IMG/VR virus record: IMGVR_UViG_3300047322_000435
Location: 1 to 49,937 of that record
Direction: 5' to 3' (one strand)
Length of the DNA stretch: 49,937 nucleotides
Source: a virus
The notes below the pieces were generated by a model. The model worked only from the letters and a program-made list of their open reading frames with translations. It searched no databases and had not been told where the DNA came from. Shown here one piece after another: positions 1 to 49,937 of this stretch (position 1 is its first letter; every line of letters starts with the position of its first letter). Position numbers and translations under genes: made by a program.

Positions 1-115
1 GATCAGGACGCCCCTGGCGCCGATGGCGAGGCTGGCGAGGCTGGCGAGGCTCAGGATGGCCAGGACGCCCCTGAGAGCGGCCAGGACGCCCCTGGCGCCG
101 ATGGCGAGGCTGGCG
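1..115. repeat. Terminal direct repeat, left copy (circular overlap)
   Basis: These 115 bases are identical to 49823-49937. The overlap begins with GATCAG, whereas inside the tandem repeat the same position reads GGCCAG, so it is anchored in sequence unique to the upstream flank and not only in the repeat. The coding frame of the metallopeptidase/VWA gene continues across the join. This supports a circular or circularly permuted genome, although an assembler overlap of a fixed length would look the same. Confidence 0.85.
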
Positions 116-1197
116 AGGCTGGCGAGGCTCAGGATGGCCAGGACGCCCCTGAGAGCGGCCAGGACGCCCCTGGCGCCGATGGCGAGGCTGGCGAGGCTCA
201 GGATGGCCAGGACGCCCCTGAGAGCGGCCAGGACGCCCCTGGCGCCGGTCACGACGATGGTTCGGAGACTTACAGCCTGGACGATGCGCCCGAAGCGAGC
301 GAAACCCTGGCCGAAGTCACGCAAGCCATCACGGAGCGCCAGGCGTCCGATGCGCCGAAGCCCATGGCCGGCGGCTTGCACGGGTATCGCAACGTGACCG
401 TGGCGTTGCCGTCCCATGTGTCACGCGCCGATCCCATGCCGCATGTCGCGGCATACAACGCGGCATTACCGGGACGCGCCGTGTTGCATGGCCAGATATC
501 GCGGTTGCTGGTCTCGCCGGAACGGGTGTCGGTGACACACCGCGAAACCTCGGGCCGGCTCGATCGCCGCGCCCTGGCGCGGCTTGGCACGGGAGCCCTG
601 GACGTATTCAGCCGGAAGCAAGAAACCCCCGGCATGGACACGGCGCTTCTGGTCCTGATTGACCTGTCATCGTCCATGCGCGGCGCGGCGCACGCCATGG
701 CCTGCGTGACCGCGTTTCACCTTGCCGCCGCCGCCGAAGATGCCGGCGCCAAGGTAGCGGTTCATGGTTTCATGGACCACGATGAACCCATGGACGTGGC
801 GACCGCCCGGATTGTGTGCCTGCTACCGTTCGGGATGCCGGTTCGCGCCAATGCTCATCGGATCATGGCGGTCCACCCGCATGTCACGACGCCACTGAGC
901 CCTGCCATTTTGGGTTGCGCCGAAGTGCTGCGAACGATTGACGCGACGCGGCGTGTCATGATGGTCCTGACCGATGGCGATTGTGACTACGGCAACGGCT
1001 GCGTGACCGATGCCTGCCTTGTCGCCAGGACGTGGGGCGTCGAGGTTGTCGGTTTGGGCATGGCCGCGCCACAGGTCGCGGCGGCTTTCCCCGATGGCCA
1101 CAGCGTCAATGTCCCGACCCTGGATGCACTGGGTCAAACCGGTTTGGGCGTGCTGGCGCGGATGCTTGAGGAAGCCGCGCCGGAGTTGGGCGCATGA
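1..1197 (+). CDS. Metallopeptidase-VWA (CobT-like) protein, C-terminal part
   Basis: This is the 3' part of the gene that starts at 49103; across the circular join the protein is about 638 aa. The frame is open from base 1. It begins with acidic repeats rich in D, G, E, A and Q (about 80 residues), then a spacer, then a von Willebrand factor A domain. The MIDAS motif is visible: DLSSS (D codon at 661), a Thr in TTPLS, and LTDGD near 970. The VWA domain should bind a divalent metal and a partner, by family analogy the AAA+ ATPase encoded just upstream. CobT of cobaltochelatase has the same acidic-linker plus VWA layout, but nothing else here suggests cobalamin synthesis. The downstream gene overlaps the stop by ATGA. 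Confidence 0.85.
   Translation, partial: DQDAPGADGEAGEAGEAQDGQDAPESGQDAPGADGEAGEAGEAQDGQDAPESGQDAPGADGEAGEAQDGQDAPESGQDAPGAGHDDGSETYSLDDAPEASETLAEVTQAITERQASDAPKPMAGGLHGYRNVTVALPSHVSRADPMPHVAAYNAALPGRAVLHGQISRLLVSPERVSVTHRETSGRLDRRALARLGTGALDVFSRKQETPGMDTALLVLIDLSSSMRGAAHAMACVTAFHLAAAAEDAGAKVAVHGFMDHDEPMDVATARIVCLLPFGMPVRANAHRIMAVHPHVTTPLSPAILGCAEVLRTIDATRRVMMVLTDGDCDYGNGCVTDACLVARTWGVEVVGLGMAAPQVAAAFPDGHSVNVPTLDALGQTGLGVLARMLEEAAPELGA
4..249 (+). repeat. In-frame 78-bp tandem repeat in the metallopeptidase-VWA gene
   Basis: Two 78-bp units (4-81, 82-159), a 69-bp unit lacking one GGCGAGGCT (160-228), and a partial unit (229-249). Each unit encodes about 26 residues alternating QDAPGADGEAGEA-type and QDGQDAPESG-type segments. 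The repeats keep frame, give a strongly acidic low-complexity linker between the protease and VWA domains, and vary by loss of a 9-bp sub-repeat, so the copy number is probably unstable. Confidence 0.9.
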
Positions 1198-1394
1198 CGC
1201 GCCCCACGCTGGATATGCGCATGATCCGCGCCGCCGCGACCGATGCCGGCAACCGCTACATGCGCCAACACCCCGAAGCCCGCCCGGACGGCTCCGCCGT
1301 CTGGACGCGCGAAGCACTGGACGCGGCCACCGCTGAGTTTCACAGGCTATGCCGCGCCGCTGGTATCTCACCCCACACCCTGCCAAACCGCTGA
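1194..1394 (+). CDS. Small hypothetical protein (66 aa)
   Basis: The ATG overlaps the stop of the VWA gene (ATGA), indicating translational coupling. The product is helical and charged, with WTREALDAATAEFHRLC in the middle. No domain recognised. Its place in the + strand run after the AAA+/VWA pair suggests co-expression with them. The 66-residue length and stop-start overlap are typical of a genuine phage gene, but homology was not checked. Confidence 0.6.
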   Translation: MTRPTLDMRMIRAAATDAGNRYMRQHPEARPDGSAVWTREALDAATAEFHRLCRAAGISPHTLPNR

Positions 1395-1407
1395 AAGGAC
1401 TTCACCG

Positions 1408-1527
1408 ATGCGAGACGACCCAAACGAGACACGCCGCCAGAACATACGCCGCCAGAACTGGCTGGCGAACGCCATGATTATCGGCGGCATGTTGCTGTTC
1501 CTGGTGTTGCTGGTGACGCTGCGATGA
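1408..1527 (+). CDS. Small single-pass membrane protein (39 aa)
   Basis: Starts at ATG 1408 with GAAAGGAC about 8 bases upstream. The N-terminal half is polar and Arg/Asn-rich (RRQNIRRQNWLANA), followed by one hydrophobic helix MIIGGMLLFLVLLVTL to the C terminus. The positive-inside rule predicts a cytoplasmic N terminus. The stop overlaps the next ATG (ATGA). Function unknown; it could anchor a partner of the AAA+/VWA machine in the membrane, which is inference from position only. Confidence 0.6.
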   Translation: MRDDPNETRRQNIRRQNWLANAMIIGGMLLFLVLLVTLR

Positions 1528-1799
1528 CACGCCGCGCGCCGCCTGACAGACTGATTAACCGCGACCCTGGACCGCGCGCGGCCAGGGTGGCGCGCCGCGC
1601 CATGCGCCGCGCGGCCATGGCGGCACGGGTGGCCCGGGATGCCGCCGCGCGCGTGTGGCACCCGGGCCATGGCCCCGGCACCGTGGTTTGCGCCACGTCG
1701 CCCCACGCGGATGGCGCGCCGCGCGTCATCATCGCGTGGGATGATGGCACCGAAGGCAAGGTATGCGAAGCGGAACTACGCGCCTCGCCGCTGCCCTGA
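1524..1799 (+). CDS. Small basic protein with Tudor/SH3-like C-terminal half (91 aa)
   Basis: The ATG overlaps the preceding stop. The first 45 residues are very Arg/Ala-rich and could bind nucleic acid. The C-terminal half reads VWHPGHGPGTVV, then VIIAWDDGTEGKV. This V-x-HP-x-x-G-x-G-x-V plus hydrophobic-x-(W/F)-DDG pattern is typical of small Tudor/SH3-like beta barrels such as the C-terminal domain of UvrD-type helicases. Last gene of the + strand operon that begins at 47551; a strong hairpin terminator follows at 1821-1851. Function not known. Confidence 0.6.
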   Translation: MTRRAPPDRLINRDPGPRAARVARRAMRRAAMAARVARDAAARVWHPGHGPGTVVCATSPHADGAPRVIIAWDDGTEGKVCEAELRASPLP

Positions 1800-1820
1800 G
1801 ACCTACCGCCGTGCCTTCCC

Positions 1821-1851
1821 AAGCCGCCAGCCTGTCTCAGGCTGGCGGCTT
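1821..1851. terminator. Bidirectional intrinsic terminator between convergent genes
   Basis: A perfect 14-bp stem (1821-1834 with 1838-1851) with a 3-base loop, flanked by A residues on the left and T residues on the right. It sits between the end of the + strand gene at 1799 and the end of the - strand gene at 1837, whose stop codon lies in the loop region. It should stop transcription from both sides. Confidence 0.85.
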
Positions 1852-2139
1852 TCCCATGCCATCCTCAAGCCGTCGCACCCGTTCTTCCAGGCTGCGCTCC
1901 GTTTGGTCCAGCCGCGCGTACAGCGTGTCGAACGCCCGTAGGATCATGGTCTCGGTCTCGCCGGCCCGCGCCGCGATGAACGCCCGTAGCGCGGCATGAT
2001 CCGCCTTGACGTGGCGCGTGTCGGCCTCAACCACCGCGAGCCCGGACCGCATGGCCCGGAGTTCCAGCAAGACCGCTTCGTGGTTGTCGTTGATCCGCCG
2101 CATCATCGCGTCCAGCCTGCGGCCCATCTCATCATCCAT
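1837..2139 (-). CDS. Small coiled-coil protein (100 aa)
   Basis: The chosen start is the internal ATG at 2139 (MDDEMGRRLDAMM), because the longer frame runs into the repeat-rich noncoding region upstream. The whole product is predicted helical, with heptad-like spacing (VEADTRHVKADHAALRAF, then LDQTERSLEERVRRLED), so it is probably a coiled-coil oligomer. It is the last gene of the - strand lysogeny/replication block and ends in the shared terminator. No enzymatic motif. Function unknown. Confidence 0.6.
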   Translation of the reverse strand: MDDEMGRRLDAMMRRINDNHEAVLLELRAMRSGLAVVEADTRHVKADHAALRAFIAARAGETETMILRAFDTLYARLDQTERSLEERVRRLEDGMGKPPA

Positions 2140-2184
2140 GCCCGCGCGCTCCTGTTCGTGCCTGTCGCCGGGCGCCACCACGGC

Positions 2185-2201
2185 AAAGCGACAATGCGAA
2201 A
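2185..2201 (+). repeat. Iteron-like repeat AAAGCGACAATGCGAAA, copy 1
   Basis: Exact 17-base match to 2223-2239 and 5027-5043. Copies 1 and 2 start 38 bases apart (not a simple whole number of turns) and lie beside the candidate origin. Confidence 0.75.
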
Positions 2202-2222
2202 TCACCACACAACGCCCGTGTT

Positions 2223-2239
2223 AAAGCGACAATGCGAAA
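2223..2239 (+). repeat. Iteron-like repeat AAAGCGACAATGCGAAA, copy 2
   Basis: Exact 17-base match to copies 1 and 3, in the same orientation, placed between two ACAACGCCCGTGTT elements. Confidence 0.75.
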
Positions 2240-2256
2240 ACCACAACGCCAGCGTT

Positions 2257-2289
2257 ACACAACGCCCGTGTTGACAACGCTACAAGACT
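2257..2289 (+). repeat. 33-bp inverted repeat, left arm
   Basis: Pairs with 2374-2406 at 32 of 33 positions (a C/G difference in the operator-like part). The arm contains ACAACGCCCGTGTTG followed by ACAACGCTACAAGACT. The 84-bp spacer is AT-rich. Confidence 0.9.
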
Positions 2290-2373
2290 GAACGGCACAG
2301 TCAGCCGCTTATATAGAGTATATATATTCTCTTTAATCCTCTCTCTCTCTCCGCGTGCATAACCCGTGGGATA

Positions 2374-2406
2374 AGTCTTGTAGCGTTGTCAACACCGGCG
2401 TTGTGT
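2374..2406 (-). repeat. 33-bp inverted repeat, right arm
   Basis: Reverse complement of 2257-2289 apart from one base. It ends 13 bases before the stop codon of the primase-helicase gene, so on a primase transcript this arm is read first and the two arms could fold into a very long hairpin. Confidence 0.9.
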
Positions 2407-2418
2407 CGGGCTCTGTCC

Positions 2419-4902
2419 CTACGGCCCGAAAGCCGCAGCCGCCCGGCGATGTGCTTGATTATCCACGATTTTCGCCAGTTCCGGGCCGGTCATGGTGTCA
2501 TACGTTGGGTCAGCGTCGGGTCTGACCCAAAGCGTGCGGCGCCCCCAACGGGTCTGCACGGCGTTGCCCTTGGACAGTAGCCGGCACCCGATCTGGCGCA
2601 GGATACTGCCCACGCCGATGACATGCGGGACAACCGTTCGCGCGGGCAAGCCCTCTGTCCCGGATCGCACGGCGGCGTTGGCTTCGTTGACGATGTCCTG
2701 CGCCGAGAAAATATCCGGGAGTGTCCCAGGGTTGGGCAGCGTCAACGCCAGTCTGTCCAACAGCCACGCCTGCACGGGATCGGCGCCTTGCCTGATGAGT
2801 TCCTGCTTGTCCCGGGTCATGGGCGCGTGTCCCTGGACTTCGTCGGCCATGATGCTTTCGTCCCAATAGCGGATCAGCCACTCCACGACGGCGTGGGCGT
2901 TGGTCGCGCCCCACGGCGAGGGCGCCTTGAGCCACGCCGCCAGCTTCTGGTGCCGGGACACGTCCCACCCGGTTTCCTTCACCCGGATCACCCAGATGCG
3001 CCGGTCGTCCGCTGGCAGCGCCATGGGCTGGTCCTCGTTGGTCGACATGACCAGCACGAACACGTTGGCCATGTTGATTTGCTTTTCGCCCTTTTCGTTG
3101 ACTTCCTCCCACTCACGGCCCGGGTCGCACATGCGTTTGAGGTTCTCATACTGATCGTGGAAACTCATGTTGCGGCGCGAGGTCATGCGGGTCTCGGGCA
3201 TCAGCACGAGACGGTTCATCATCCAGGGGTTGAAGTCGTTGGTGAACATGCGGTGGGACAGCGTGATGGACCGGTTCTCCCCCAGCACCTGCATGAGGGG
3301 CGCCCAGATTTGTTCCTTGCCCGCGCCTTGTTTGCCGATGAACAGGGGATTGTGGCCCGGCTTGATGCCCACGGCGCCGACGACCATCGCCATGTAGAAC
3401 AGCAATCTCCGGGCGTTCTCGGTTTCCTCGAACGTGGCGACGCCGGTCAGCGCGTGCAGCAGCGCCCACCACTCGCTGTCCCGGACGTGCCTGTCCAGGA
3501 CATCGTCCGGGACAAGCCGCAGGACACGGTCGATGTCGATCCAGGTATTGAGATAGTTTTTCGATGTGCCGTTCTTGGCCTGTCGCTTCAGGATTTCTTC
3601 CTGCCCGGGGAACCACCCCAGGCGGTGGATGAGCCGTCGCCGGCTGACATCGCCCATATACCATTGCGACGGCGTGATGGGCTTGTTCGCTTTGCCCGCC
3701 GTGGGCAGTTGGTCGCGCAACAAGGGCGTCCACCAAAAGTTGAAACCTCGCTCGGGCATCTCGGCCAGGGTGTTGGTGTTGACGAAGACGCTCTTGCCGG
3801 AGTGGTAGACCGTCGTGTCCCAGAACTCAGCGACGATGGCGGGGTCTGGGGGTAAAGGGCTTGGGGGCGCCTTGTCCGGGTCCACCGCGTCGAACTTCGA
3901 GGGGTCGAAGTCGTCGATGGTGAACAGGCCCCCGGTCTCGTCGCTGAGCATCTGGTTTACCCGGGCGCGCACGTCCTCGGGCTTGCGGTCCTGGCAATGC
4001 CCGTGCCAGCACTTGAAGCCGCCGCCCCGAAAGAAAAACGTGCCCGTGTCCTCGGCGCCGGTCCCGGGCGTGTGTTCATGCACCCAGGGGCAGCGCACGT
4101 CCCAGCCGGTGCCCTGGGAGGCTTTGCGTTCGTTGCCCAGGACCAGACCCAGCTTGCGCATCGCCCGCAGGGTGGGCTCCACGGGACGGCGGCTCGGTCC
4201 TGGCGCTGGTCCCGGGACAAGTCCCGGGACAGGTCCCGGGGGCGAGGTCGAGGTCGCTTTGTCGAACGGATCGAAGGGTTCTGGCTCGGTGTGCCGCATC
4301 ACGGCTTTGACCCCGATGGGTAAACGCCGTTCAAGTTCCGCCGGGTCGTGCCTGGGTCCCGTCGCGTGGGTGAGCCGCGCTTTGTGGGCCGGCTTGTATT
4401 TGGTGTTGCTCCCAAAGGGCAGGCGCATGATGCGAACCACGCCCTTCATGCCGGGGTCCTTGCCGCCGAACAGGACAACTATGATGGCGTCGATCAGCGC
4501 GTCACCCCGCGTCCTGTCGGTCACGGGCGGGTCCAGGACATACCCCCAGTGTTCGTTGCCGGGCGAGGTCTCGACCTTGTAAGTGGGCTCGCCCAGCAGG
4601 CCCTGGACTTCACCGGGGGCGACCTTGGGGCCGACATCGTCCACCACCAGGGCGCGCAGCGCCTCGAAGTTCTCGATCCGCCGTAGGCCGGGCGTGTTCA
4701 CGAGCCCGACGCAGAAGTAATTATTCCAGTCCGGGTTGAACCGGGACAGCACGTTCTTGGCGGGCTGCGTGGCCCAGTAGGGGCGGTATATGTCGTCCCG
4801 TCCCAGGACCGGGACCGAACAGACTTCCACCCGGGGCCAGTCGGCCCCGAAGATCAGTTCCAGAAACTCCTGGTTGTTCGTGATGGGTTGGGTTTTGGGC
4901 AT
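2419..4902 (-). CDS. Primase-helicase (AEP-like primase plus DUF5906-type ATPase), 827 aa
   Basis: Replication initiation protein. The N-terminal third (LRALVVDDVG near 85, HWGYVLDPPV near 120, RIMRLPFGSN near 160) resembles RepB/archaeo-eukaryotic-type primase domains of phage proteins. A Pro-rich linker and a zinc-binding module follow (C271, H275, then CWHGHC at 298-303). The C-terminal half is a superfamily 3-like helicase ATPase with Walker A GKQGAGKE at 523-530 and a later VLVMSTNEDQP sensor-like segment, as in DUF5906 proteins. The start chosen is ATG 4902; the frame stays open upstream but that part is Arg-rich and noncoding in character. An AAAGGAG lies about 22 bases upstream, which is long. 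It ends next to the candidate origin. Confidence 0.85.
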   Translation of the reverse strand: MPKTQPITNNQEFLELIFGADWPRVEVCSVPVLGRDDIYRPYWATQPAKNVLSRFNPDWNNYFCVGLVNTPGLRRIENFEALRALVVDDVGPKVAPGEVQGLLGEPTYKVETSPGNEHWGYVLDPPVTDRTRGDALIDAIIVVLFGGKDPGMKGVVRIMRLPFGSNTKYKPAHKARLTHATGPRHDPAELERRLPIGVKAVMRHTEPEPFDPFDKATSTSPPGPVPGLVPGPAPGPSRRPVEPTLRAMRKLGLVLGNERKASQGTGWDVRCPWVHEHTPGTGAEDTGTFFFRGGGFKCWHGHCQDRKPEDVRARVNQMLSDETGGLFTIDDFDPSKFDAVDPDKAPPSPLPPDPAIVAEFWDTTVYHSGKSVFVNTNTLAEMPERGFNFWWTPLLRDQLPTAGKANKPITPSQWYMGDVSRRRLIHRLGWFPGQEEILKRQAKNGTSKNYLNTWIDIDRVLRLVPDDVLDRHVRDSEWWALLHALTGVATFEETENARRLLFYMAMVVGAVGIKPGHNPLFIGKQGAGKEQIWAPLMQVLGENRSITLSHRMFTNDFNPWMMNRLVLMPETRMTSRRNMSFHDQYENLKRMCDPGREWEEVNEKGEKQINMANVFVLVMSTNEDQPMALPADDRRIWVIRVKETGWDVSRHQKLAAWLKAPSPWGATNAHAVVEWLIRYWDESIMADEVQGHAPMTRDKQELIRQGADPVQAWLLDRLALTLPNPGTLPDIFSAQDIVNEANAAVRSGTEGLPARTVVPHVIGVGSILRQIGCRLLSKGNAVQTRWGRRTLWVRPDADPTYDTMTGPELAKIVDNQAHRRAAAAFGP

Positions 4903-5026
4903 GGGGGATCGCGCGCCGCGTGGCGCTCCTTTCCGTGCGAGGTTGCTGGGTCCGTATGTGTCTCGCGCGTGTTGTTCGCGCGGGGCGGCGACCCTGTGCC
5001 CGCGACCGACACGGGTCAAGCCGCCG

Positions 5027-5043
5027 AAAGCGACAATGCGAAA
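5027..5043 (+). repeat. Iteron-like repeat AAAGCGACAATGCGAAA, copy 3
   Basis: Exact match to the copies at 2185 and 2223, but placed upstream of the primase-helicase coding region, so the repeats flank that gene. Confidence 0.75.
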
Positions 5044-5172
5044 ATAAGATGAGCCTTGCGGCGCGGCGCGCGGCGAACTAAATGTGCGTGGCTTTCCACT
5101 CGCGCGGGTTCTGTCCGCGTGGGCGGGGTTGCAGGACCGTATTCCGTCGCGCAGGGGTGTGCGACGGAACTC

Positions 5173-5205
5173 AAACGCCCGGCGAAGCCACACCGCCGGG
5201 CGTTT
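5173..5205. terminator. Hairpin terminator downstream of the 79-aa gene
   Basis: Perfect 12-bp stem AAACGCCCGGCG / CGCCGGGCGTTT with a 9-base loop and T/A ends on both sides. It lies 14 bases past the stop of the - strand gene at 5219, so it may separate transcription of the integrase block from that of the primase, or attenuate it. Confidence 0.7.
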
Positions 5206-5218
5206 CTGCGTCCGGGGG

Positions 5219-5458
5219 TTATTCCAGGGGTGTCAGCGCCAGGATGCCGTTCTCGGTTATTTCAATCCAGCCGGGGCGAAGCCCTTCCCTCACGTAGCCA
5301 AGCCGCTCCAGGCGCGTCAGGAGCGGCCTGGGGGCGTTTCCGGGCCTCGGGATCGGCCCGTGGTCTCGCAGCCGCTCCAGGACCCTCCTGGCGTCCTTCG
5401 TGAGAGGCACCGGTCCCCAGGGCGGATCGTTCAGCGTGCGGGCAGGCTCAGCGGACAT
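5219..5458 (-). CDS. Small winged-helix-like protein (79 aa)
   Basis: The sequence LTKDARRVLERLRDHGPIP, then APRPLLTRLERLGYVREG, then GWIEITENGILAL follows the helix-helix-helix-wing pattern of small winged-helix DNA-binding proteins: a recognition helix ending in LERLGYV and a wing with a final ITENGILAL strand. The ATG overlaps the end of the upstream gene by 11 bases. It could be a transcriptional regulator of the - strand block. The domain call is by pattern only. Confidence 0.6.
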   Translation of the reverse strand: MSAEPARTLNDPPWGPVPLTKDARRVLERLRDHGPIPRPGNAPRPLLTRLERLGYVREGLRPGWIEITENGILALTPLE

Positions 5459-5651
5459 GCGTGAGCAACGCCGTGAGCGCCGCCCCCACCGCCGCGCCCG
5501 CGCCCAGCAGCACGCCCCCGGCGGTCAGCCCCTGGATCAGCAGCCGCCGGGGACCGAAAGTCTTGATATGGCGGATCTGCTCGGTGCGGTTCTCGATATC
5601 GAGCAATAGCAGGTCCCATTTGGCGCGCTGGATCTGTTCGGCTGTGGTCAC
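5448..5651 (-). CDS. Small membrane protein (67 aa)
   Basis: An amphipathic, charged N-terminal helix (AEQIQRAKWDLLLLDIENRTEQIRH) is followed by a hydrophobic Gly/Ala-rich segment, LIQGLTAGGVLLGAGAAVG to the C terminus, likely one membrane helix. It starts 4 bases after the stop of the 89-aa gene. This layout is common in phage accessory genes near integrase, for example superinfection-exclusion or holin-like proteins, but no specific function can be assigned. Confidence 0.6.
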   Translation of the reverse strand: MTTAEQIQRAKWDLLLLDIENRTEQIRHIKTFGPRRLLIQGLTAGGVLLGAGAAVGAALTALLTHVR

Positions 5652-5655
5652 GGCG

Positions 5656-5925
5656 TTAATCGTGGCTCGCGGCGACCGCGCGGTCGTTGGCCTTCCTGAT
5701 TTTTTCGTTGTTTATATCGAAGTGAAGCAGCGCGCCCATGAGACTCGTGCCAAGACTGGCGCGGGCGCCGTTCGTGGAACGGCTGAGTTCACGAACGAGT
5801 TGCCGCAGTTCGATAACCTCATCAGGGTCCAGACCGGAGAGGATCACCGTTTGGGTCGGTTGCTCCATTATTTCCTCCGCGATGCAACGCGCATATTCCG
5901 ACAGGTGTTCCAGGGAGTTGGACAT
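5656..5925 (-). CDS. Small hypothetical protein (89 aa)
   Basis: Start ATG 5925 has a good GAAAGGA ribosome-binding site; the longer open frame upstream overlaps integrase and is a shadow. The product is helical: SLEHLSEYARCIAEEIME, then DPDEVIELRQLVRELSRS. No recognised domain. It sits 31 bases downstream of the integrase stop and is closely packed with the next gene, so it belongs to the integrase operon. Confidence 0.6.
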   Translation of the reverse strand: MSNSLEHLSEYARCIAEEIMEQPTQTVILSGLDPDEVIELRQLVRELSRSTNGARASLGTSLMGALLHFDINNEKIRKANDRAVAASHD

Positions 5926-5956
5926 GGGGTAAATCCTTTCAGAGGTTAAGCGCGCG

Positions 5957-7135
5957 TCACGCCGCGCGGTTGTCGCTGTAGGCGCGGCGCATGGCGTCAA
6001 CGCGCCGCGCGTTTTCGCGGACTGATACGCCAGCGTTGTGAAGATACACGCGGGCCACGGTCGCCGGGTTGTCCGCCAGAATGTGCGCCACGTCGGCCAC
6101 GGTCCATCCCTGCTGTATTCTGAGCGTGGCGAAGGTGTGGCGGAACACGTGCGGCGTGAGACGGGGCAAGCCGGCCTCGGTTTTGAAACGATCAAAGCCC
6201 CGCATCAGGCGGTGGCTCAGAAACAAGGGTCCCGTGGGCTTGCCCTGTGACTTCGGCGCGTGGAAGGCTTCACGCTTCAGGACCGCGAGCAGCCGATCCG
6301 TCACGAAGACATCAGCGCAGCGCCGCTTGTTTTTGGGTTGATAGTCCGGGTTCACGAAGTCGATGAACTCGTGTCCCGGTGTCAGGTCCACGCGGTCCCA
6401 GGTCAGTTCCAGGATCGCGTCCCGGCGCTGGCCACTGTCCAGCGCGATGCAGGTGAACAGCGCGGCGCGCCGGTCCACGTCGGCGGCGCGTTTTAGCCAT
6501 TGCACCGCCAGATCGAAGACACGGGCGTCTTCCTCCGCTGTGAGCGTGTAGTTCCGTGGCGCCGTGACCGGCGGCATCTGGTAGACGGGCACGGCGTCGC
6601 GCGGGATAATCCGGTTCCTGGCGCCCCACTTCAGGACCGTCACCACCACGCTCAGATGGCGCCGCGCGGTGCCCTGGGACCAGCCGGCGGCGAGGATGTC
6701 GCGGTGCAGTTCGGCCAGCTTCTGTTCGGTGATCCGGTCCGCCGGGTAGTGTCCCAGGACCTGTGCCAGCTTGTTGACCGTATGATCCTGCGCGCGGGTC
6801 AGACGCTGGGTCTGGGTTGTCGCTACATAGTTGTCCGCCAGTCGCGCGAACGTGAGAGGCGCGCCCGTCGCTTGTTTGGGTGTCAGCCGATCCTGCTTCC
6901 AGAACGTGAACCTGTCTTCGGCCTCGGTCCGATCAGGGGTGTGGCAGGCTTGCTCGTTGGTGCGGTGATCGGTCGTGCCATCGGCTTTGAGGATGACATC
7001 GGTGTGCTTGATGACCCAGCGTCCCGTGGGCTTTTGCCATAGATACGCATTGCGAACCGTCCACTCGACGGCGCTTTCGCCGGGACGGCGAGGGCTTCTT
7101 GTGGGTTTGCTGATCTGAGGTTTTTTAAGAGCCAC
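5957..7135 (-). CDS. int: Tyrosine recombinase (phage integrase), 392 aa
   Basis: Catalyses site-specific integration of the phage genome. Visible catalytic residues are Arg in LDSGQRRDA (about 234), HVFRHTFATLR (about 328, the H-x-x-R box) and the nucleophilic Tyr in VARVYLHN (about 364). A SAM-like core-binding domain begins around LTFARLADNYVATTQTQ. The annotated start is GTG 7135, with AGAGG about 10 bases upstream, inside the excisionase-like frame. The two frames overlap by about 250 bases, and an A_AAA_AAC heptamer sits 9 bases into the integrase frame. No attachment site could be identified. Confidence 0.93.
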   Translation of the reverse strand: MALKKPQISKPTRSPRRPGESAVEWTVRNAYLWQKPTGRWVIKHTDVILKADGTTDHRTNEQACHTPDRTEAEDRFTFWKQDRLTPKQATGAPLTFARLADNYVATTQTQRLTRAQDHTVNKLAQVLGHYPADRITEQKLAELHRDILAAGWSQGTARRHLSVVVTVLKWGARNRIIPRDAVPVYQMPPVTAPRNYTLTAEEDARVFDLAVQWLKRAADVDRRAALFTCIALDSGQRRDAILELTWDRVDLTPGHEFIDFVNPDYQPKNKRRCADVFVTDRLLAVLKREAFHAPKSQGKPTGPLFLSHRLMRGFDRFKTEAGLPRLTPHVFRHTFATLRIQQGWTVADVAHILADNPATVARVYLHNAGVSVRENARRVDAMRRAYSDNRAA

Positions 7136-7275
7136 TTTTCAATATCCTCTTTGAGTATGAGAACCGGTCGTCCCGGCAAATAAGGCAGCTTGCCGTCGCG
7201 GCGCAGCGCCTGGATCTTGGACAGCCCGCAGCGCAACAGCGCGGCGGCTTCCCGCTGCGTGAGCAGTTCGATCAA
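6883..7275 (-). CDS. Excisionase-like HTH protein (MerR/HTH_17 type), up to 130 aa
   Basis: The N-terminal 50 residues (LLTQREAAALLRCGLSKIQALRRDGKL..YLPGRPVLILKEDIEKWL) are a classic excisionase-family winged HTH: helix, turn, recognition helix, GR-x-hydrophobic wing and DIEKWL. Such proteins bind attachment-site arms and direct excision. Start TTG 7275 overlaps the repressor stop (TTGA). After residue 52 the frame continues for about 80 Ser/Pro/Arg-rich residues that overlap the integrase out of frame and look like shadow translation. The functional product may therefore be about 50 residues plus a tail, or a frameshifted Xis-Int fusion. Confidence 0.7.
   Translation of the reverse strand: MIELLTQREAAALLRCGLSKIQALRRDGKLPYLPGRPVLILKEDIEKWLLKNLRSANPQEALAVPAKAPSSGRFAMRIYGKSPRDAGSSSTPMSSSKPMARPITAPTSKPATPLIGPRPKTGSRSGSRIG
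7120..7126 (-). other. Candidate -1 ribosomal slippery site A_AAA_AAC
   Basis: On the - strand the bases read TTA AAA AAC in the excisionase frame, so the heptamer A AAA AAC is in the exact X_XXY_YYZ phase for -1 slippage. The -1 frame is the integrase frame. A shift here would fuse the HTH domain to the integrase. Confidence 0.4.
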
Positions 7276-7853
7276 GCGGGCGCGTCGCCGTCATCGGAAA
7301 ATGTCTCGCCTTCAAGCGTTGGGTCCACGGCGTGGATCGCGTCCATCAGGCGGATCGCCATTTCGGTGTCCACTTCGACCGAATAACTAAAATGCACGCG
7401 GCCCCGTTTGTTCAGTCTGAAACTGAAAGCGGCGGTGGTGTGGTGCGGGGGGTGTTCGGTCCCGGCCTTGCCGGCGCCGGGCGGCATGGGTTCGCCGCGT
7501 GGCGCGTCCCCCCAAACGAAGGGCGGCGGTAGCGAGGGGTACCCGGGCTTGCCGTGGTCGCGCTCCAGGTCCTTGGGGTCCAGGTCCAGGACCTCGGCCA
7601 GCTTCAGTACGGTCTCGGGCCGTGGGTATCCCTTGCCGGCGAGATACCACGTCATGCGGTCGCGGTTGCGCGCGACGGATCGGCCCTGGGCGTTGATCTT
7701 GGAGCCCCAGACGGCACGGGCCACGTCACTGGCCGACATGTGTTTCGCCGTCATGGCGCGGACGAGGTTGTCCCGGAACTTTTCCAGATCCGGGAGCGGT
7801 GGCGTCAATGGCGCCGACGCGGGGGTCTCGGGCTGGGTGAGTGTGTTGGGCAT
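7272..7853 (-). CDS. C1-type HTH repressor (193 aa)
   Basis: Residues 22-95 hold a Cro/C1-type HTH: FRDNLVRAMTAKHMSASDVARAVWG, then RDRMTWYLAGKGYPRPETVLKLAEVLDLDPKDL. The C-terminal half has no Ala-Gly cleavage site or Ser-Lys protease of the LexA/CI kind, so self-cleavage is not evident; it has a beta-rich AFSFRLNKRGRVHFSYSVEV segment instead. It sits at the left of a 289-base intergenic region facing the + strand replication operon, the usual place for a lysogeny repressor. The operators in that region are probably its targets. Confidence 0.8.
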   Translation of the reverse strand: MPNTLTQPETPASAPLTPPLPDLEKFRDNLVRAMTAKHMSASDVARAVWGSKINAQGRSVARNRDRMTWYLAGKGYPRPETVLKLAEVLDLDPKDLERDHGKPGYPSLPPPFVWGDAPRGEPMPPGAGKAGTEHPPHHTTAAFSFRLNKRGRVHFSYSVEVDTEMAIRLMDAIHAVDPTLEGETFSDDGDAPA

Positions 7854-8142
7854 GGTTTCTCGCGGTTCAGTCGGTGTGGAGGGGGTTGGCGGTGCAGCGG
7901 TTCGGGCACGGGCATAACCCCGGAGTCGGTGTCAATAGGGTTTTGCCACTGGTTAAAAACAACGCCCGTGTTGTTTTGTCAACGGGTATCAACACGCGGG
8001 TATGTTGTGTTCAGTCACATTTGTCATTTGATATCTGTTGGATGGTCTTGATTTTTGTAGGGTAAAGGTGTCCAAACAGTCTGGACGAGCGCCGGGCTTA
8101 TCCCTACATTTATATAACCGGTTGACGACAAAGCCAGGGAAA
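7854..8142. promoter_or_regulatory. Lysogeny/lytic switch region with operator-like repeats
   Basis: Divergent intergenic region between the repressor (-) and the Cro-like gene (+). It contains CAACGCCCGTGTTG at 7960-7973 (also found beside the candidate origin), a related AACACGCGGGTATGTT at 7990-8005, and the short inverted repeat GTCCA-N7-TGGAC at 8070-8086. A TATATAA at 8110-8116 could be a -10 element for the + strand operon, but no good -35 is seen. The base composition is more AT-rich than the flanking genes. Confidence 0.6.
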
Positions 8143-8424
8143 ATGGCGGAAATGCTTACTTTGGATGTGGCTTATGTGTTTGACCATGTGGGCGGTCCGT
8201 CTGTTCTGCTGGACCTGTTGCGTCGCGGTGAACCCACGGCGACCCTCACATACCCGCAGGTTCAGATGTGGCGCCAGCGAAACACGATCTCCGCGCCGTG
8301 GATCGTCCCTGTCCTATATTTAATGACCCAACGGGGCCACACCCTGGGCGAACTCCTGGTGGACACCGAAGACCCTTTTGGCGTTCCCGACGTGGTCGAG
8401 GGCGTTACCGTGACGGGGGCCTGA
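8143..8424 (+). CDS. Cro-like small HTH protein (93 aa)
   Basis: Start ATG 8143 follows CCAGGGAAA closely. The sequence VFDHVGGPSVLLDLL, then LTYPQVQMWRQRNTISAPWIVPVLYLM matches small Cro/YdaS-type HTH proteins, in which the second helix pair carries a V-x-x-W-R-x-R-x-x-I-x-x-x-W signature. First gene of the + strand replication operon and divergent from the repressor, so it probably promotes the lytic programme. The 3-base gap to the next gene suggests coupled translation. Confidence 0.75.
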   Translation: MAEMLTLDVAYVFDHVGGPSVLLDLLRRGEPTATLTYPQVQMWRQRNTISAPWIVPVLYLMTQRGHTLGELLVDTEDPFGVPDVVEGVTVTGA

Positions 8425-8427
8425 CCG

Positions 8428-8910
8428 ATGCGGGTGCTGGGCGTGGACCCCGGGCTCACGGGCGCGTTCGCCGTCATCGAGACGAGCCTTGATCTTTTGT
8501 TGATCTGGGACATGCCCACGGCGTTCTCGGGTACGGGCACGCGCAAGGAAGTGGTCCCGGTGTTCGTGGCGGACATCATACGGGACAACCACCCCGACGT
8601 GTGTTTCATCGAGCGCGTGGGCGCGATGCCCAAACAGGGCGTGTCCAGCGTCTTCTCGTTTGGACGTAGTTATGGCGTGGTGCTGGGCGTGCTGGGTGCC
8701 CTTCGCGTGCCCGTGCATCTCGTGTCACCCGGCGACTGGAAGCGCGCCATGAAGCTGGGCCAGGACAAGAGCGCGGCCCGTGCCATGGCGGCGAGGCTGT
8801 TCCCCCACGCGGGTCACTATTTTCAGCGTGTCCGGGACCATGACCGCGCCGAAGCCGCGTTGATCGCGTGTTGTGGTGTTAAATGGGTGGGGGACAAAAA
8901 ACAGGGTTGA
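8428..8910 (+). CDS. RuvC-like Holliday junction resolvase (160 aa)
   Basis: RNase H-fold endonuclease that resolves branched recombination and replication intermediates, needed before packaging. The acidic catalytic residues are in place: D7 in LGVDPGLTG, E62 in CFIERVGAM, and D139/E142 in HDRAEAALIA. The VSPGDWKRAMKLGQDKSAAR segment is typical of phage and plastid RuvC-type proteins. The length agrees with the family. It lies between the Cro-like gene and the helicase in the replication operon. Confidence 0.85.
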   Translation: MRVLGVDPGLTGAFAVIETSLDLLLIWDMPTAFSGTGTRKEVVPVFVADIIRDNHPDVCFIERVGAMPKQGVSSVFSFGRSYGVVLGVLGALRVPVHLVSPGDWKRAMKLGQDKSAARAMAARLFPHAGHYFQRVRDHDRAEAALIACCGVKWVGDKKQG

Positions 8911-8991
8911 CTCGCCCAACAGCGGGGCTAATGTCGGGAACATTACAAGACACGCTCCCCCGGCTTCACCCTCCAGGATCGAGGATTAACC

Positions 8992-9855
8992 ATGCCGAAA
9001 CAGGGACTTACCCCGGCGCCTCGACCCTACCAACTGGACGGCGTGAAGTTTGTGTTGGACGTTTTGTCCCCAGGACATACACACAACACACAGGTTGACA
9101 CGGCCCACATGGCCCACCGCGCGGCGATGCTCGCGGATGACCCGGGCCTGGGCAAGTCCCTGATGGCGATCCTGATCGCGAAGGCTTTGTTCGCGTCGCG
9201 CGTCCTGACCATCGCGCCGGCCATAGGCCGCGTGTCCTGGCCTTTGGAGATACGCAGGTGGTGGCCCGAGATGGCGCACTTCACGCGTATCCCGGCGCAC
9301 AACGCGTTCCCGGACAGCCTGTTGGACGACCGGATTTTCCTGATCCTGAGTTATGACACGTTTAGCCACGGCGCGAGTATGCGCCGCTGGAATGGTCCTC
9401 TGCGCGAACGCGCCTGGGACCTGCTGATCCTGGACGAAGCGCATTACCTCAAGGAAGGCTCGTCGAACCGCACGCGCGCCATCTATGGGGACAGGTTCGG
9501 GCACCGGGGCATCCAGTCCACGGCGAACCGCGTGTTGTTACTGACGGGTTCGCCCACGCCCAACCACGCGGCGGAGTTGTTTCCTCACTACCGCACGTTC
9601 TGGCCTGACCTGTTGCTGACCCCCGAGGGCAAGTCCCTGGGGCAGACGGATTTCGAGGAACGCTACACCAAATACACGGACGGCGCCTGGGGCCGCAGCA
9701 TCCACGGGTCTCAGGGCCAGGACGTTTTGCGCGAGGCGTTCGCGCCGGTCATCCTGCGGCGTCGGCGGCGCGACGTGCTGGGCGAACTTCCCCCATTGCA
9801 GGTCGAGGATGTGCCGTTGCTGGTTCGTCACGGTCCCGGGACCGGCGCGCCATGA
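8992..9855 (+). CDS. SNF2-family helicase, N-terminal (RecA1) part, 287 aa
   Basis: Contains motif I LADDPGLGKS (about 43-52), motif II LDEAH, and motif III LLLTGSPTPN of SNF2/SWI2-type ATPases, ending with LRRRRRDVLGELPPLQ, which normally begins the linker to the second RecA domain. The frame stops at 9853-9855, overlapping the ATG of the next ORF, which supplies the missing second domain. Phage homologues are normally one polypeptide of about 450-500 residues. This is either a natural two-subunit split or a single-base frameshift. Both parts look intact otherwise. Confidence 0.8.
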   Translation: MPKQGLTPAPRPYQLDGVKFVLDVLSPGHTHNTQVDTAHMAHRAAMLADDPGLGKSLMAILIAKALFASRVLTIAPAIGRVSWPLEIRRWWPEMAHFTRIPAHNAFPDSLLDDRIFLILSYDTFSHGASMRRWNGPLRERAWDLLILDEAHYLKEGSSNRTRAIYGDRFGHRGIQSTANRVLLLTGSPTPNHAAELFPHYRTFWPDLLLTPEGKSLGQTDFEERYTKYTDGAWGRSIHGSQGQDVLREAFAPVILRRRRRDVLGELPPLQVEDVPLLVRHGPGTGAP

Positions 9856-10463
9856 TCGCGCCCGGCCTGTCTCAGCGCGACATCACGGATCTGCTCATGG
9901 CCGTCCCGGTGGACGCGCTGCCCGAACTGTTACAGTCTGAAGAACTACATCTCGCGACCCTGCGGCGCATGCTGGGCGAGGCCAAGGCCGCGCCATCGGC
10001 TGCGTGGGCACGAGAAAAGCTAAATACCGGCGTCGATAAAATCCTGCTTTTCGCGTGGCACGTGGAGGTCATCGCCACGCTCGCCGACCTGTTACTGGAC
10101 TTTAACCCTGTAACCATCACGGGCGCCACGACGACCCGGGCCAGGACGGTCGCGGTTCGGAAGTTTCAGCACGATCCCGAGACCAGGGTTTTCGTGGGAC
10201 AGATCAAGGCGGCTGGGACGGCGATCACGCTCACCGCCGCCGCGCATATCGGCATCGTCGAACCAAGTTGGGTGCCAGGAGAGAACGAACAGGTCATCGC
10301 CCGTGCATGGCGGATGGGGCAGGTCCGTCCCGTGCTGGCGAGTTTCCTTTACGTGCCCGGATCGTTGGATCAGCGGATCATGCGTGCCTTTCGCCGTAAA
10401 GCCAGCGAACTCCTGCCCCTTTACGAAGCCGAAACATCATCTCATAGGGAAGGCGTCCAGTAA
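9852..10463 (+). CDS. SNF2-family helicase, C-terminal (RecA2) part, 203 aa
   Basis: Carries the helicase C-terminal motifs: KILLFAWHVEVI (motif IV region), VGQIKAAGTAITLTAA (motif V) and EQVIARAWRMGQ (motif VI with the arginine finger). The ATG overlaps the upstream stop (ATGA), so reinitiation would keep the halves in equal amounts. This frame is also open upstream of the ATG across the preceding 40-50 bases, so one inserted or deleted base would fuse the two ORFs. The stop overlaps the next ATG as TAATG. Confidence 0.78.
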   Translation: MIAPGLSQRDITDLLMAVPVDALPELLQSEELHLATLRRMLGEAKAAPSAAWAREKLNTGVDKILLFAWHVEVIATLADLLLDFNPVTITGATTTRARTVAVRKFQHDPETRVFVGQIKAAGTAITLTAAAHIGIVEPSWVPGENEQVIARAWRMGQVRPVLASFLYVPGSLDQRIMRAFRRKASELLPLYEAETSSHREGVQ

Positions 10464-46985: not shown

Positions 46986-47401
46986 AGGTTGGCCACCGCT
47001 TCCCGCGCCGCGCGCCAAACCCTCGCCCACGCCAGGGGTTCACTGTCCCGGCTGTCCCACGCCAGGACAAGCGCCAGGCGCAATGGCTCCCGCTTCGCCC
47101 ATGCGATGGGCGCCATGTCCCGCCATCCTGGCGTGGCCATGAGTTCCACTGGCAAGAGGCCACGTCTGTGCATTTGAGCCAGGACACGCCGCGCCATGCG
47201 TCCCGGCGTGTCCTGGCGCCGCCGCGTGTCGTGTATCCGGCAAAGCGCGATACCGCGCATGGCCGCTTGTCGGCAGCGAACGCATCGCCGGATAGCCGGC
47301 GACGCGATGGACACGCGATGCTTGTCCAATGCGGCGAGGCTATTGGGATGGCCGCGCCATCCCCCAAGGTTCGGGTGTCTCACCGTGTTGGGCTCGCTCA
47401 T
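46982..47401 (-). CDS. Zinc-ribbon protein (139 aa)
   Basis: Start ATG 47401 (MSEPNTVRHPNLGGWRGHPNSLAAL). The middle has CVRC then ALCRIHDTRRRQDTPGR, a short Cys/His zinc-binding pattern (C-x2-C-x(n)-C-x2-H) like those of small phage proteins found beside terminase genes. The C-terminal half is helical and Trp/Arg-rich. First gene of the leftward late operon, divergent from the AAA+ gene. Confidence 0.6.
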   Translation of the reverse strand: MSEPNTVRHPNLGGWRGHPNSLAALDKHRVSIASPAIRRCVRCRQAAMRGIALCRIHDTRRRQDTPGRMARRVLAQMHRRGLLPVELMATPGWRDMAPIAWAKREPLRLALVLAWDSRDSEPLAWARVWRAAREAVANL

Positions 47402-47550
47402 GGCGCGAGTGTGCTGGTCCTGAAGAAAAACACAAGCGGGACCATGTTTGTTGTTGTGTTTCGCTTGCGTGGCGCTATGTGTGCGTTTCGCCTTGCCTTG
47501 ACTGTCCTGCACCCCAACGAAACACCCCAACGGAAAGCACACCCCATACA
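47402..47550. promoter_or_regulatory. Divergent intergenic region between late and AAA+/VWA operons
   Basis: 149 bases between divergent starts. It contains the inverted repeat AAACACAA (47428-47435) / TTGTGTTT (47454-47461), followed by CGCTTGCG. A TTGACT at 47507 could be a -35 for the + strand operon, but the -10 is not convincing. Promoters for both operons are expected here from gene layout. Confidence 0.5.
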
Positions 47551-49098
47551 ATGACAACCGCTACACCTAGCGCCGTTTGGCGTACCGCCATGCGCGCCGC
47601 GTTGCGCGACCGGCTCGCCAATGCCGCGCCCGATGATATCGACGCGCAAGCCGCGCGCCTGAACCTCAACGGGCGGCTTATCAATAACCTCACGAAAGCC
47701 GATTTACGCGGCTTGCTGCGCATCGCCGGCATTGATCCGATGATGCTGCACCCCTCGCACACACCCGGAGAAGCGCCGATGGCCGAAGGTGCGATAACCG
47801 ATACCGATGATGACGACCGGGACCTGATGACGCCGCCGGCTGATACCGACGCCGCCGCGCCCGCATCGGTCCCGGCTGATAATGATGACGACGCCGCCGC
47901 CATTGAAGCGACGGTCCAGGCCGTTCGCGCCGATATCATGGGCGGAGGCTTCGCCGCTCTTGACCAACGGCTCCGGGACCTCGTCGTGGCCGCGCGCAAG
48001 CCGGCGGTCATCAAGACGGTCACAAAGACCGTAACCGTTGAAGTCGAACGCGACCAGGACACGACAACGCCGCGCGCCGCGCCCACGGATGCCACCGTGA
48101 CATGGCGTAAGGCGTTTGGCGTGCGCGGTGCTCTTGGAAACGAAACAGCAACGGTATGGGATGGCGCGCACCCGGACACGCCGTGCGTCAATGATCGTTA
48201 CGTGTGGCCGGCGGAAACCGCGATCGCGCTCACAGAGATCCGGCGCGGTCACAATGTCATGCTTTTTGGTCCCAAGGGCACGGGCAAGACGGAGTTCGCG
48301 CAGCAAGTCGCCGCGCGGCTTGGGCGTCCCTTCGTGCTGGTTTCCTGTGATGCCAGCACGGACGCCGCCACGCTGGTGGGCATGACCGTGCCGGCCCGGG
48401 ACGGTAAAGGCGTGTCGTTTCAACCGGGACAACTCGTGCGCGCCATCCAAACCCCTGGCGCGGTCATTTGCATTGACGAACCCTCAATCGCACGCCCGGG
48501 CGCGTTGTTCGCGTTGCAGAATGTTTTGACCGCCAATCGCAGCCTTTACGTCCAGGAAACGGGACAGAAGGTGAAGGTCGCCCCTGGCGTGATTTTCTTC
48601 GCCACCGATAACACAAGCGGCATGGGCGGGGGTTCCAGGGTCGGCTACCACGGGACACAGGCGCTCAACGCCGCGACCCTGGACCGTTTCGGGGTTAGGA
48701 TCAAACTAGGCTGGCACGCGCCAGACGTTGAGGCGGGGATTATCGTTTCGTATGTCCCTGGCTGCACGATTGAACTGGCCAACCTCTTGGTGCAGGCTGC
48801 GACCACGACCCGCGCGGCGGCTGATAGTCAGGTTCTCACCGAGGGACTTGGTTTGCGCCGGTTGTTCGCGTGGGCGGGACTGCTTGCTGATGGCCATGAT
48901 CCTGAAATCGCGTTCCGTTGCGCCGTGCAAAACTGTGTCCCGGACGGCGAACAAGAAGCGTTGCGGCAACAGTGCTTGCTTGCCGTGGACAAGAACACTG
49001 TTCGCGCCGCGTTGAACCCGACCGCGCCGGTCCCGTCATCATCGCCCGCCGCTTCTGACTTTGACCCGGTTTCGCCTGACAATGGCGAGGGGAGCTAA
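47551..49098 (+). CDS. MoxR/CobS-like AAA+ ATPase (515 aa)
   Basis: Start ATG 47551 with GGAAAG about 14 bases upstream; the longer frame to 47329 overlaps the divergent promoter region. Residues 1-190 contain an acidic, Ala-rich linker (EGAITDTDDDDRDLM) and a coiled-coil patch. The AAA+ module begins at RRGHNVMLFGPKGTGKTEFA (Walker A 240-247), then Walker B VICIDE (about 305-310), sensor 1 FFATDN and LDRFGVRIKL (sensor/arginine region), as in MoxR and CobS proteins. Gene pairs of this ATPase with a VWA protein are a known functional module; the VWA protein follows 4 bases downstream. Confidence 0.88.
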   Translation: MTTATPSAVWRTAMRAALRDRLANAAPDDIDAQAARLNLNGRLINNLTKADLRGLLRIAGIDPMMLHPSHTPGEAPMAEGAITDTDDDDRDLMTPPADTDAAAPASVPADNDDDAAAIEATVQAVRADIMGGGFAALDQRLRDLVVAARKPAVIKTVTKTVTVEVERDQDTTTPRAAPTDATVTWRKAFGVRGALGNETATVWDGAHPDTPCVNDRYVWPAETAIALTEIRRGHNVMLFGPKGTGKTEFAQQVAARLGRPFVLVSCDASTDAATLVGMTVPARDGKGVSFQPGQLVRAIQTPGAVICIDEPSIARPGALFALQNVLTANRSLYVQETGQKVKVAPGVIFFATDNTSGMGGGSRVGYHGTQALNAATLDRFGVRIKLGWHAPDVEAGIIVSYVPGCTIELANLLVQAATTTRAAADSQVLTEGLGLRRLFAWAGLLADGHDPEIAFRCAVQNCVPDGEQEALRQQCLLAVDKNTVRAALNPTAPVPSSSPAASDFDPVSPDNGEGS

Positions 49099-49102
49099 GA
49101 CC

Positions 49103-49937
49103 ATGGCAAATACGCTTTACCTTGAAGTAACCGCCGCCGCCGCTGAGACCGCCGGTAAAATCATCGCGCAACGTAAGGGACAGAATAACCGTCCCGCGCG
49201 CGTGACCGTGGGCGCCAAAGGTGGCGCCACCGCATCGGTCCAGGTCAACGGCTCGCATGTGCTTATGAACCTTCCAAGCCTGCCGGCGTCCACCGTGTTG
49301 AGCCGCGTTGAGGCTGACCGCATGTTAGGCTTCGTGGCGCACGAGTGCCTACACGTACTGCACACGGACTGGCAATGGTGGCACCATTGCGTGCAAGCCG
49401 GCGCCCGGGTGCGGCATTGGGCCAACTGTTTGGAAGATGTCCGCATTGAGGCAAAGGAACTCCGCGCGGGTGTTTTTCCGGCTCTGCGCGGCATCCTGTC
49501 CGCGACCACCGATCATGTTCACTACCAGGGTTTGACGCGCGCCGCGAAAGACGGTCGCGCCATCGGCGCCAGGATTGCCGACGCGCCCTATTGCGTGGCG
49601 ATTTTGGGCAGGATGGCCAACCGCTACACGGTGCCCACGGCGCGCGGCTTGCGTGGCGCGTTGCACCCGGACGTGGCGCGGCTTGTCGATCGCGCGCTTG
49701 CCGAAGTGAAATCCTGCCGGTCAACGCATGACGTTTACAGTCTGGCCATGCGCATGGTGGACCTGGAACGCCAGATTATCGCCGCGAACGCACCGCCCCC
49801 GCCACCGCCCACGCCACCGGAGGATCAGGACGCCCCTGGCGCCGATGGCGAGGCTGGCGAGGCTGGCGAGGCTCAGGATGGCCAGGACGCCCCTGAGAGC
49901 GGCCAGGACGCCCCTGGCGCCGATGGCGAGGCTGGCG
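49103..49937 (+). CDS. Metallopeptidase-VWA (CobT-like) protein, N-terminal part
   Basis: The start ATG lies 4 bases after the stop of the AAA+ gene, with GAGGGGAG as ribosome-binding site, so the two are translationally coupled. An HExxH zinc-protease motif, HECLH, is at residues 80-84 in a helix that follows an AD-RMLGFVA segment. This resembles the putative metallopeptidase domain found N-terminal to VWA-like domains (DUF2201 type). A Pro-rich stretch (PPPPPPTPPE) near residue 230 leads into the acidic repeats, and the protein continues at base 1. The zinc-peptidase plus VWA architecture, next to a MoxR-type ATPase, suggests an ATP-driven remodelling or proteolysis machine. The substrate is unknown. 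Confidence 0.85.
   Translation, partial: MANTLYLEVTAAAAETAGKIIAQRKGQNNRPARVTVGAKGGATASVQVNGSHVLMNLPSLPASTVLSRVEADRMLGFVAHECLHVLHTDWQWWHHCVQAGARVRHWANCLEDVRIEAKELRAGVFPALRGILSATTDHVHYQGLTRAAKDGRAIGARIADAPYCVAILGRMANRYTVPTARGLRGALHPDVARLVDRALAEVKSCRSTHDVYSLAMRMVDLERQIIAANAPPPPPPTPPEDQDAPGADGEAGEAGEAQDGQDAPESGQDAPGADGEAG
49823..49937. repeat. Terminal direct repeat, right copy (circular overlap)
   Basis: Exact copy of bases 1-115. It starts 720 bases (240 codons) into the gene that begins at 49103, and the codon phase here matches the phase of the open frame at base 1. Both copies lie in the region encoding Asp/Gly/Glu/Ala-rich repeats, so the true number of repeat units could be miscounted by short-read assembly. 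Confidence 0.85.

Follow-up and report, generated by a model that had tools for sequence, protein, structure and literature searches.

What is the function of the long inverted repeat that stands directly behind the primase-helicase gene of a temperate-type phage, and could it be the site at which replication of the phage DNA begins? The stretch of DNA analyzed here, called the window below, is the IMG/VR record IMGVR_UViG_3300047322_000435 at its full length (positions 1–49,937; 49,937 bp). Its first 115 bases are the same as its last 115 bases, and the matching ends of the window and of another record (G005) are consistent with a circular assembly. The window has the gene set of a temperate-type tailed phage, including a tyrosine integrase (5957–7135, on the same strand as the primase gene and about 3.5 kb from the repeat), a helix-turn-helix (HTH) protein, an exonuclease and a Gp2.5-like SSB, and further encodes a DNA polymerase, a head protein, a portal and a virion transglycosylase. 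No nucleotide relative was found among 50,697 phage records, and a plasmid search returned one distant match. The bacterial genomes searched yielded 5 distant loci only and no prophage of the window's clade, and with it no host and no attB. The phage also carries a CobS-like AAA ATPase and CobT-like VWA protein pair (47329–49098 and 364–1197, +), and tandem repeats at the start of the CobT-like frame span the record ends (1–250 and 49791–49937). Several relatives' contigs likewise stop about 0.2–2.4 kb downstream of the primase gene, perhaps because the assembly was broken by repeats.

Anatomy of the locus

The arms of the inverted repeat (2257–2289, distal to the primase gene, and 2374–2406, proximal to it) are 33 nt long and complementary at 32 of 33 positions. 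The repeat is far beyond chance: its ungapped score of 30 compares with at most 12 among 40 dinucleotide shuffles, its gapped score of 61 with a maximum of 26 (none of 200 shuffles as high), and its fold as single-stranded DNA has a z of −9.4. The 84-nt spacer, or loop (2290–2373), a candidate DNA-unwinding region, is 55% AT in a genome of about 35% AT and holds, between 2310 and 2352, a TATATAGAGTATATATAT run (2310–2327) and a CT tract (about 2338–2352); on the opposite strand the core of this segment, TAAAGAGAATATATATACTCTATATAAGC, is identical in the relatives L003 and L004. The repeat sits between two genes on one strand, its right arm lying 12 nt from the stop (2419) of the minus-strand primase gene. 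To its left are two exact minus-strand copies of the 17-mer TTTCGCATTGTCGCTTT (2185–2201 and 2223–2239), here called iterons, which are the direct repeats AAAGCGACAATGCGAAA; a GC-rich GGCGCCCGGCG (2166–2176, minus strand) follows the iterons in many relatives, as judged by eye. The operator-like element ACACAACGCCCGTGTT occurs exactly at 2207–2222, between the two iterons, and at 2257–2272, in the distal arm, with a degenerate copy, CCACAACGCCAGCGTT, at 2241–2256 (three mismatches) and a one-mismatch copy on the reverse strand at 2391–2406. The first-pass annotation had described a 33-bp inverted repeat around an AT-rich spacer with a run and a CT tract, two 17-base direct repeats and two operator-like elements on its left, and a position beside the primase, and all of these were found again. 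Both arms contain the motif CAAC-N6-GTTG, within the operator-like CAACGCCCGTGTTG (2260–2273) of the distal arm and CAACACCGGCGTTG (2390–2403) of the proximal arm, and ACAACGC recurs in the distal arm with a 15-nt period. Of six phages, four (the window, L007, L008 and L009) have internal direct repeats in the arms that no more than 42 of 2000 shuffles match; L004 and L012 do not.

The gene adjoining the repeat (2419–4902, minus strand) encodes an 827-aa primase-helicase with a primase-like N-terminus, a DUF5906 (SF3-type) helicase and a C-terminal winged-helix-like domain. DNA primase matches from PHROG were obtained at both ends of the protein and a DUF5906 match above cut-off in the helicase part; the protein thus combines an AEP primase with an SF3 helicase, the AEP nature of the N-terminus being taken from PHROG names only. 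The nearest solved structures, 6k9c and 6k9e (E about 5e-12, entry title "Primase"), match the helicase region only, and 6k9c is the C-terminal ring of the NrS-1 polymerase. The model of the whole protein was weak (pLDDT 60). The model of the last 188 residues (pLDDT 76) is winged-helix-like and matched 12 chains at a VIA Z of at least 5, two of them Orc1/Cdc6, and many of its top structural matches are winged-helix proteins; the best E in a Foldseek search with this model, 0.067, was below significance. The assignment of a C-terminal winged helix, including the resemblance to Orc1/Cdc6 at a VIA Z of about 5, is weak and suggestive only. In the relative L008 (IMGVR_UViG_3300046511_000171), the primase gene is present as two overlapping frames (5887–7188 and 7116–8426), split near the point where similarity turns from window-like to L007-like; a frameshift, a sequencing error or breakage of a chimeric gene could account for it.

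The 193-aa HTH protein (7272–7853, minus strand) is a putative immunity repressor; as its matches to HTH_31, HTH_3 and HTH_26 are weak and its position is the other clue, this identity is a guess. The promoter region of its gene carries the operator-like element ACAACGCCCGTGTTGT (7959–7974), where a one-mismatch copy of ACACAACGCCCGTGTT lies at 7957, in front of the gene. A fourth operator-like site (9083–9098) lies just inside the start of an SNF2-type gene, with similar sites in the records G002, G006 and G007, and is perhaps an operator of an early promoter. The SNF2-type helicase itself is encoded by two adjacent, overlapping genes (8992–9855 and 9852–10463, +), the first with an SNF2-related domain and the second with Helicase_C. 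Also in the early region is a RuvC-like Holliday-junction nuclease (8428–8910, +; Pfam E 2.8e-4, just under cut-off), for which a cruciform would be a suitable substrate.

The repeat and its neighbors in related phages

A primase protein search identified 12 IMG/VR loci and an alignment search retained 80 (loci are referred to by numbers such as L008); additional scans with the L012, L045 and L007 primases brought no new contigs. A gapped repeat finder was applied, with 200 shuffles each, to 13 close-clade downstream regions including that of the window (L010, which repeats L009, was omitted). In 11 of the 13 phages an inverted repeat whose score is reached by at most four of 200 shuffles follows the primase-helicase gene. 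Eight of these repeats exceed all 200 shuffles (window, L004, L006, L007, L008, L009, L012 and L049) and three are weak, being reached by one shuffle in L005 and L011 and by four in L003; no repeat above shuffles was found in L045 (28/200) or L053 (18/200). The relatives' repeats begin no more than about 125 nt past the stop, and their spacers measure 50–125 nt (ungapped) in clear cases. Of 72 loci entered into a wider downstream scan, 9 had no downstream sequence; among the more distant L055–L119, the downstream arm score never exceeded 13 in the 57 with such sequence, of which 56 stand at 26–33% identity. A long array of GGGCCA hexamers follows the iterons of L006 (about 252–341 nt past the primase stop), in place of which L009, L012 and L045 have many GGGACAG-type repeats.

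The iterons recur both within the clade and within the window, where a third exact copy (5027–5043, minus strand), absent from the first-pass annotation, lies some 125 nt ahead of the primase ATG and adjoins a TTGACC that is −35-like by eye. With at most one mismatch, TTTCGCATTGTCGYTTT was found in nine of the 16 records searched; eight of these carry three to five copies apiece and the ninth, a fragment, has one. A search with the reversed control found none in the 16. Six of 13 sequences (window, L003, L004, L005, L007 and L008) have an exact copy of a downstream iteron some 140 nt ahead of the primase start, and copies at the primase start are also visible by eye in L009 and, degenerate, in L006. 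Other repeats occupy the downstream iteron position in L045, L011/L012 and L053. The exact 17-mer occurs at 25 loci in IMG/VR, of which 13 outside the clade were judged unrelated from sequence context alone.

The operator-like motif has a similarly double distribution. CAAC-N6-GTTG is found upstream of the HTH gene in eight of nine phages (the window and seven of eight relatives, L012 being the exception), in all eight just behind a TTGACA hexamer recognized by eye. When one mismatch is allowed, six records together contain 24 copies of the longer form ACAAC-N6-GTTGT, where 0.9 would be expected per record (a figure simulated for the window only); five of the six have copies in the origin region (that of L009 does not), all six in the HTH promoter, and four at the beginning of the SNF2-type gene or close to it. 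This pattern fits a repressor that would also cover an origin, and it supports, at the level of a motif common to the arms and the promoter of the putative repressor, the earlier suggestion of a switch that also reads the repressor operator. Taken with the iterons at the primase promoter, the same operator-like elements also speak for a locus that is regulatory only, namely a set of symmetric operators of the repressor or the primase, with the origin elsewhere. We consider this unlikely: the arms reach well past the operator element, with pairing of up to 47 nt (L008, two mismatches), L009 retains a repeat with 30-nt arms without operators, and a promoter scan of 1700–5300 gave no site at the scan threshold.

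While the stem structure is conserved, arm sequences differ between phages, and the manner in which they differ is informative. Each phage's own repeat was mapped onto the alignment within three groups with like arms, and of 70 base pairs compared, 14 have changed on both sides and 3 on one side only. Double and single changes number 6 and 0 of 26 pairs for L007/L008, 6 and 2 of 32 for the window/L003/L004 (where a further 8 of the 32 depart by unpaired cells only), and 2 and 1 of 12 for L005/L006, whereas slid control alignments gave no more than 1, 2 and 0 double changes, respectively. Shuffles reached the covariation score in 14, 4 and 116 of 500 cases in the same order, and the L005/L006 group is thus uninformative when taken alone. 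Pairing that survives sequence change, in a repeat placed between two same-strand genes, might equally be selected in RNA, for instance in an RNase III site or an mRNA-stabilizing hairpin of the primase transcript. However, 182 of the 190 arm pairs in six phages are Watson-Crick, with a single G-U pair on the message strand, where RNA would tolerate G-U, and one on the other strand, which speaks for selection on the DNA and against selection on RNA. No Rfam family matches at the repeat, and an RNA element would explain neither the symmetric spacer nor the linkage with the helicase half (see below); we regard this reading as a little less probable still than a purely regulatory one.

Arm type and the helicase half

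The repeat has changed together with one part of the neighboring protein, the C-terminal helicase half (about residues 401–827; 2419–3702, minus strand). The window, L005 and L008 have N-terminal primases that are 94–99% identical and similar iteron flanks, but their helicase halves are only 58–64% identical and their repeats are unlike. At the nucleotide level, identity among the three is mostly 83–100% over the first part of the gene, drops to 29–88% across the helicase half and the repeat, and is back to 80–100% at 180–300 nt after the stop, which places the border of the exchanged cassette some 180 nt past the stop, close beyond the right arm. The helicase half of L005 is 86% like that of L006 and its repeat is of the L006 kind, and the helicase half of L008 is 73% like that of L007 and its repeat is of the L007 kind. 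Since the iterons stay constant where the arms differ, and are also present at the primase promoter, they are probably an element separate from the arms, to judge from their distribution; for the first of these reasons, the protein that reads them is probably not the helicase half.

Mantel tests were run on 10 phages (L010, L011, L049 and L053 were left out), with repeat borders set by hand, mostly from the gapped finder. Arm similarity follows that of the helicase half (rho 0.62, p 0.003, partial 0.56) better than that of the integrase (0.36, p 0.04, partial 0.23) or the N-terminal primase (0.35, p 0.07); the value for the HTH protein is 0.26 (p 0.12). Beyond the helicase half, arm similarity does not follow the other genes. 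These figures weigh against an attP of the tyrosine integrase, in which the repeats would be core and arm-type integrase sites. The integrase gene is on the same strand some 3.5 kb away, CAAC-N6-GTTG looks like a core pair in inverted orientation, and the iterons might serve as arm-type sites, but the integrase explains little of arm similarity once the helicase is controlled. Moreover, the integrases of the window and L008 are 96% identical while their repeats differ, repeats of one type are shared by L003/L004 and by L007/L008, whose integrases have identities of only 54% and 49%, and the window has no tRNA gene, nor did positions 1–10000 give a tRNA match. An attP is improbable.

As the helicase half and the repeat are neighbors, ordinary block recombination could by itself account for their linkage. 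The sharp far border between arm and iteron, together with a candidate recognition helix of the C-terminal domain that groups, by eye, as the arms do, favors a functional pair. A broader and more tentative proposal, possible rather than probable in our estimation, is that the origin is an exchangeable specificity cassette, in which the helicase half and the arms would be swapped as lock and key between otherwise near-identical phages, giving mutually compatible replicons. The repressor would then act on the arm operators, so that lysogeny closes the origin, and the arms of a pair would change together when one is copied from the other by fold-back replication.

A candidate stem-loop origin and comparable systems

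The reading that we favor, and hold to be probable, is that the repeat is a stem-loop replication origin of the pRN1/BIP-1 type, placed directly 3′ of the primase-helicase gene of a temperate-type phage. The first-pass annotation had suggested an origin here, and comparison with relatives and with pRN1 now lends support to that proposal: the structure is conserved without the sequence, after the same gene; its exchange goes along with that of the helicase half; and the layout is that of the stem-loop required by pRN1. In the mechanism that we infer, the C-terminal winged-helix-like domain and the SF3-type helicase would recognize the two mirror-image arms, and helicase rings would be assembled to the left and right of the AT-rich spacer. 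Extrusion of the arms, or their single-strand folding, would help this spacer to melt, and the N-terminal primase would start DNA at priming sites on either strand, so that two forks diverge. The iterons would form a second element, present also at the primase promoter, which probably serves to control initiator dosage, and through the CAAC-N6-GTTG sites in and beside the arms a repressor may keep the origin closed in the lysogen.

GC skew, which had been proposed as a check, is counted as neutral. The raw, mean-removed minima lie 0.9–2.0 kb from the repeat in five of seven records and farther off in G004 (4.9 kb) and G010 (7.0 kb, signal not significant), but this agreement to within 2 kb fades once gene orientation is controlled through third codon positions: p is below 0.05 only in G002 (0.020; 0.086–0.488 in the others), and the controlled slope is zero or negative for G005 and G010. 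It is because the raw result was not upheld after this control that the skew is given no weight.

A hairpin telomere or a rolling-circle origin is very improbable: the TATACGCGCG-like cores of L007 and L008 resemble the N15 telomere, and rolling-circle origins can contain stem-loops, but none of eight records has a protelomerase (ResT-TelK_cat) match or a match to Phage_GPA, the only HUH family searched, the arms are 50–125 nt apart, and the ends of the window and G005 are consistent with a circular assembly.

For the study of stem-loop recognition by primase-helicase replicons, the clade offers natural chimeras, with like flanks and N-terminal primases but different helicase halves and arms, in which it can be tested directly which domain does the reading and whether it reads structure or sequence. 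The operator-like sites within the arms further suggest a direct link from immunity to origin firing. The literature, searched mostly through titles and the openings of abstracts, gave no account of the window's clade or of operators within such stem-loops; as far as this search reached, the following are new: the compensatory changes counted here, the exchange of the repeat together with the helicase half, iterons that recur at the primase promoter, and operator-like sites within the arms.

Several known systems resemble the locus in part. The helicase domain is closest in solved structure to the NrS-1 primase-polymerase, whose priming sequence occurs once per strand in mid-genome and is discussed as an origin; the available parts of these papers report no stem-loop origin for NrS-1 (PMC7102993; PMC8718748). 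In SaPI and SCCmec Rep-type elements the origin follows immediately after the gene for the initiator helicase, whose C-terminal domain reads it, but these origins, as far as the available text describes them, are iteron-based and have no arms of conserved complementarity; in SCCmec, inverted repeats are dispensable for Cch2 binding in vitro (PMC7581432). In phage BPP-1, near-identical to BIP-1, a primase-helicase gene is also followed by a long inverted repeat with tandem repeats in its arms, which are 48 nt long and begin with (TTGCCTCGTTT)x2, overlapping by 2 nt. Unlike in the window's clade, this repeat lies 467–570 nt after the stop, has an 8-nt loop and accompanies a protein that matches Prim-Pol, PriCT_2 and D5_N; a profile comparison of the window's primase family with the BPP-1 primase gave no match.

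The closest likeness is to the Sulfolobus plasmid pRN1, in which a stem-loop of about 100 nt after the primase-helicase gene is essential for replication and works when displaced; according to the portions of the report available, it is the part least conserved in sequence and is conserved in structure, gel shift and footprinting gave no specific binding, and the same type of origin was proposed for Bordetella phage BIP-1 (Berkner et al., PMC4234260). As in pRN1 (21-nt stem, 58-nt loop), a long loop is framed by a large stem in the window and its relatives; the repeat stands immediately 3′ of the primase-SF3 helicase gene, and between conserved flanks its structure is kept while its sequence varies. 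Unlike pRN1, which has no iterons in the text available, the window's clade consists of bacteriophages with a DUF5906-type helicase, and its repeat is accompanied by iterons and operator-like sites and is exchanged as a cassette with the helicase half.
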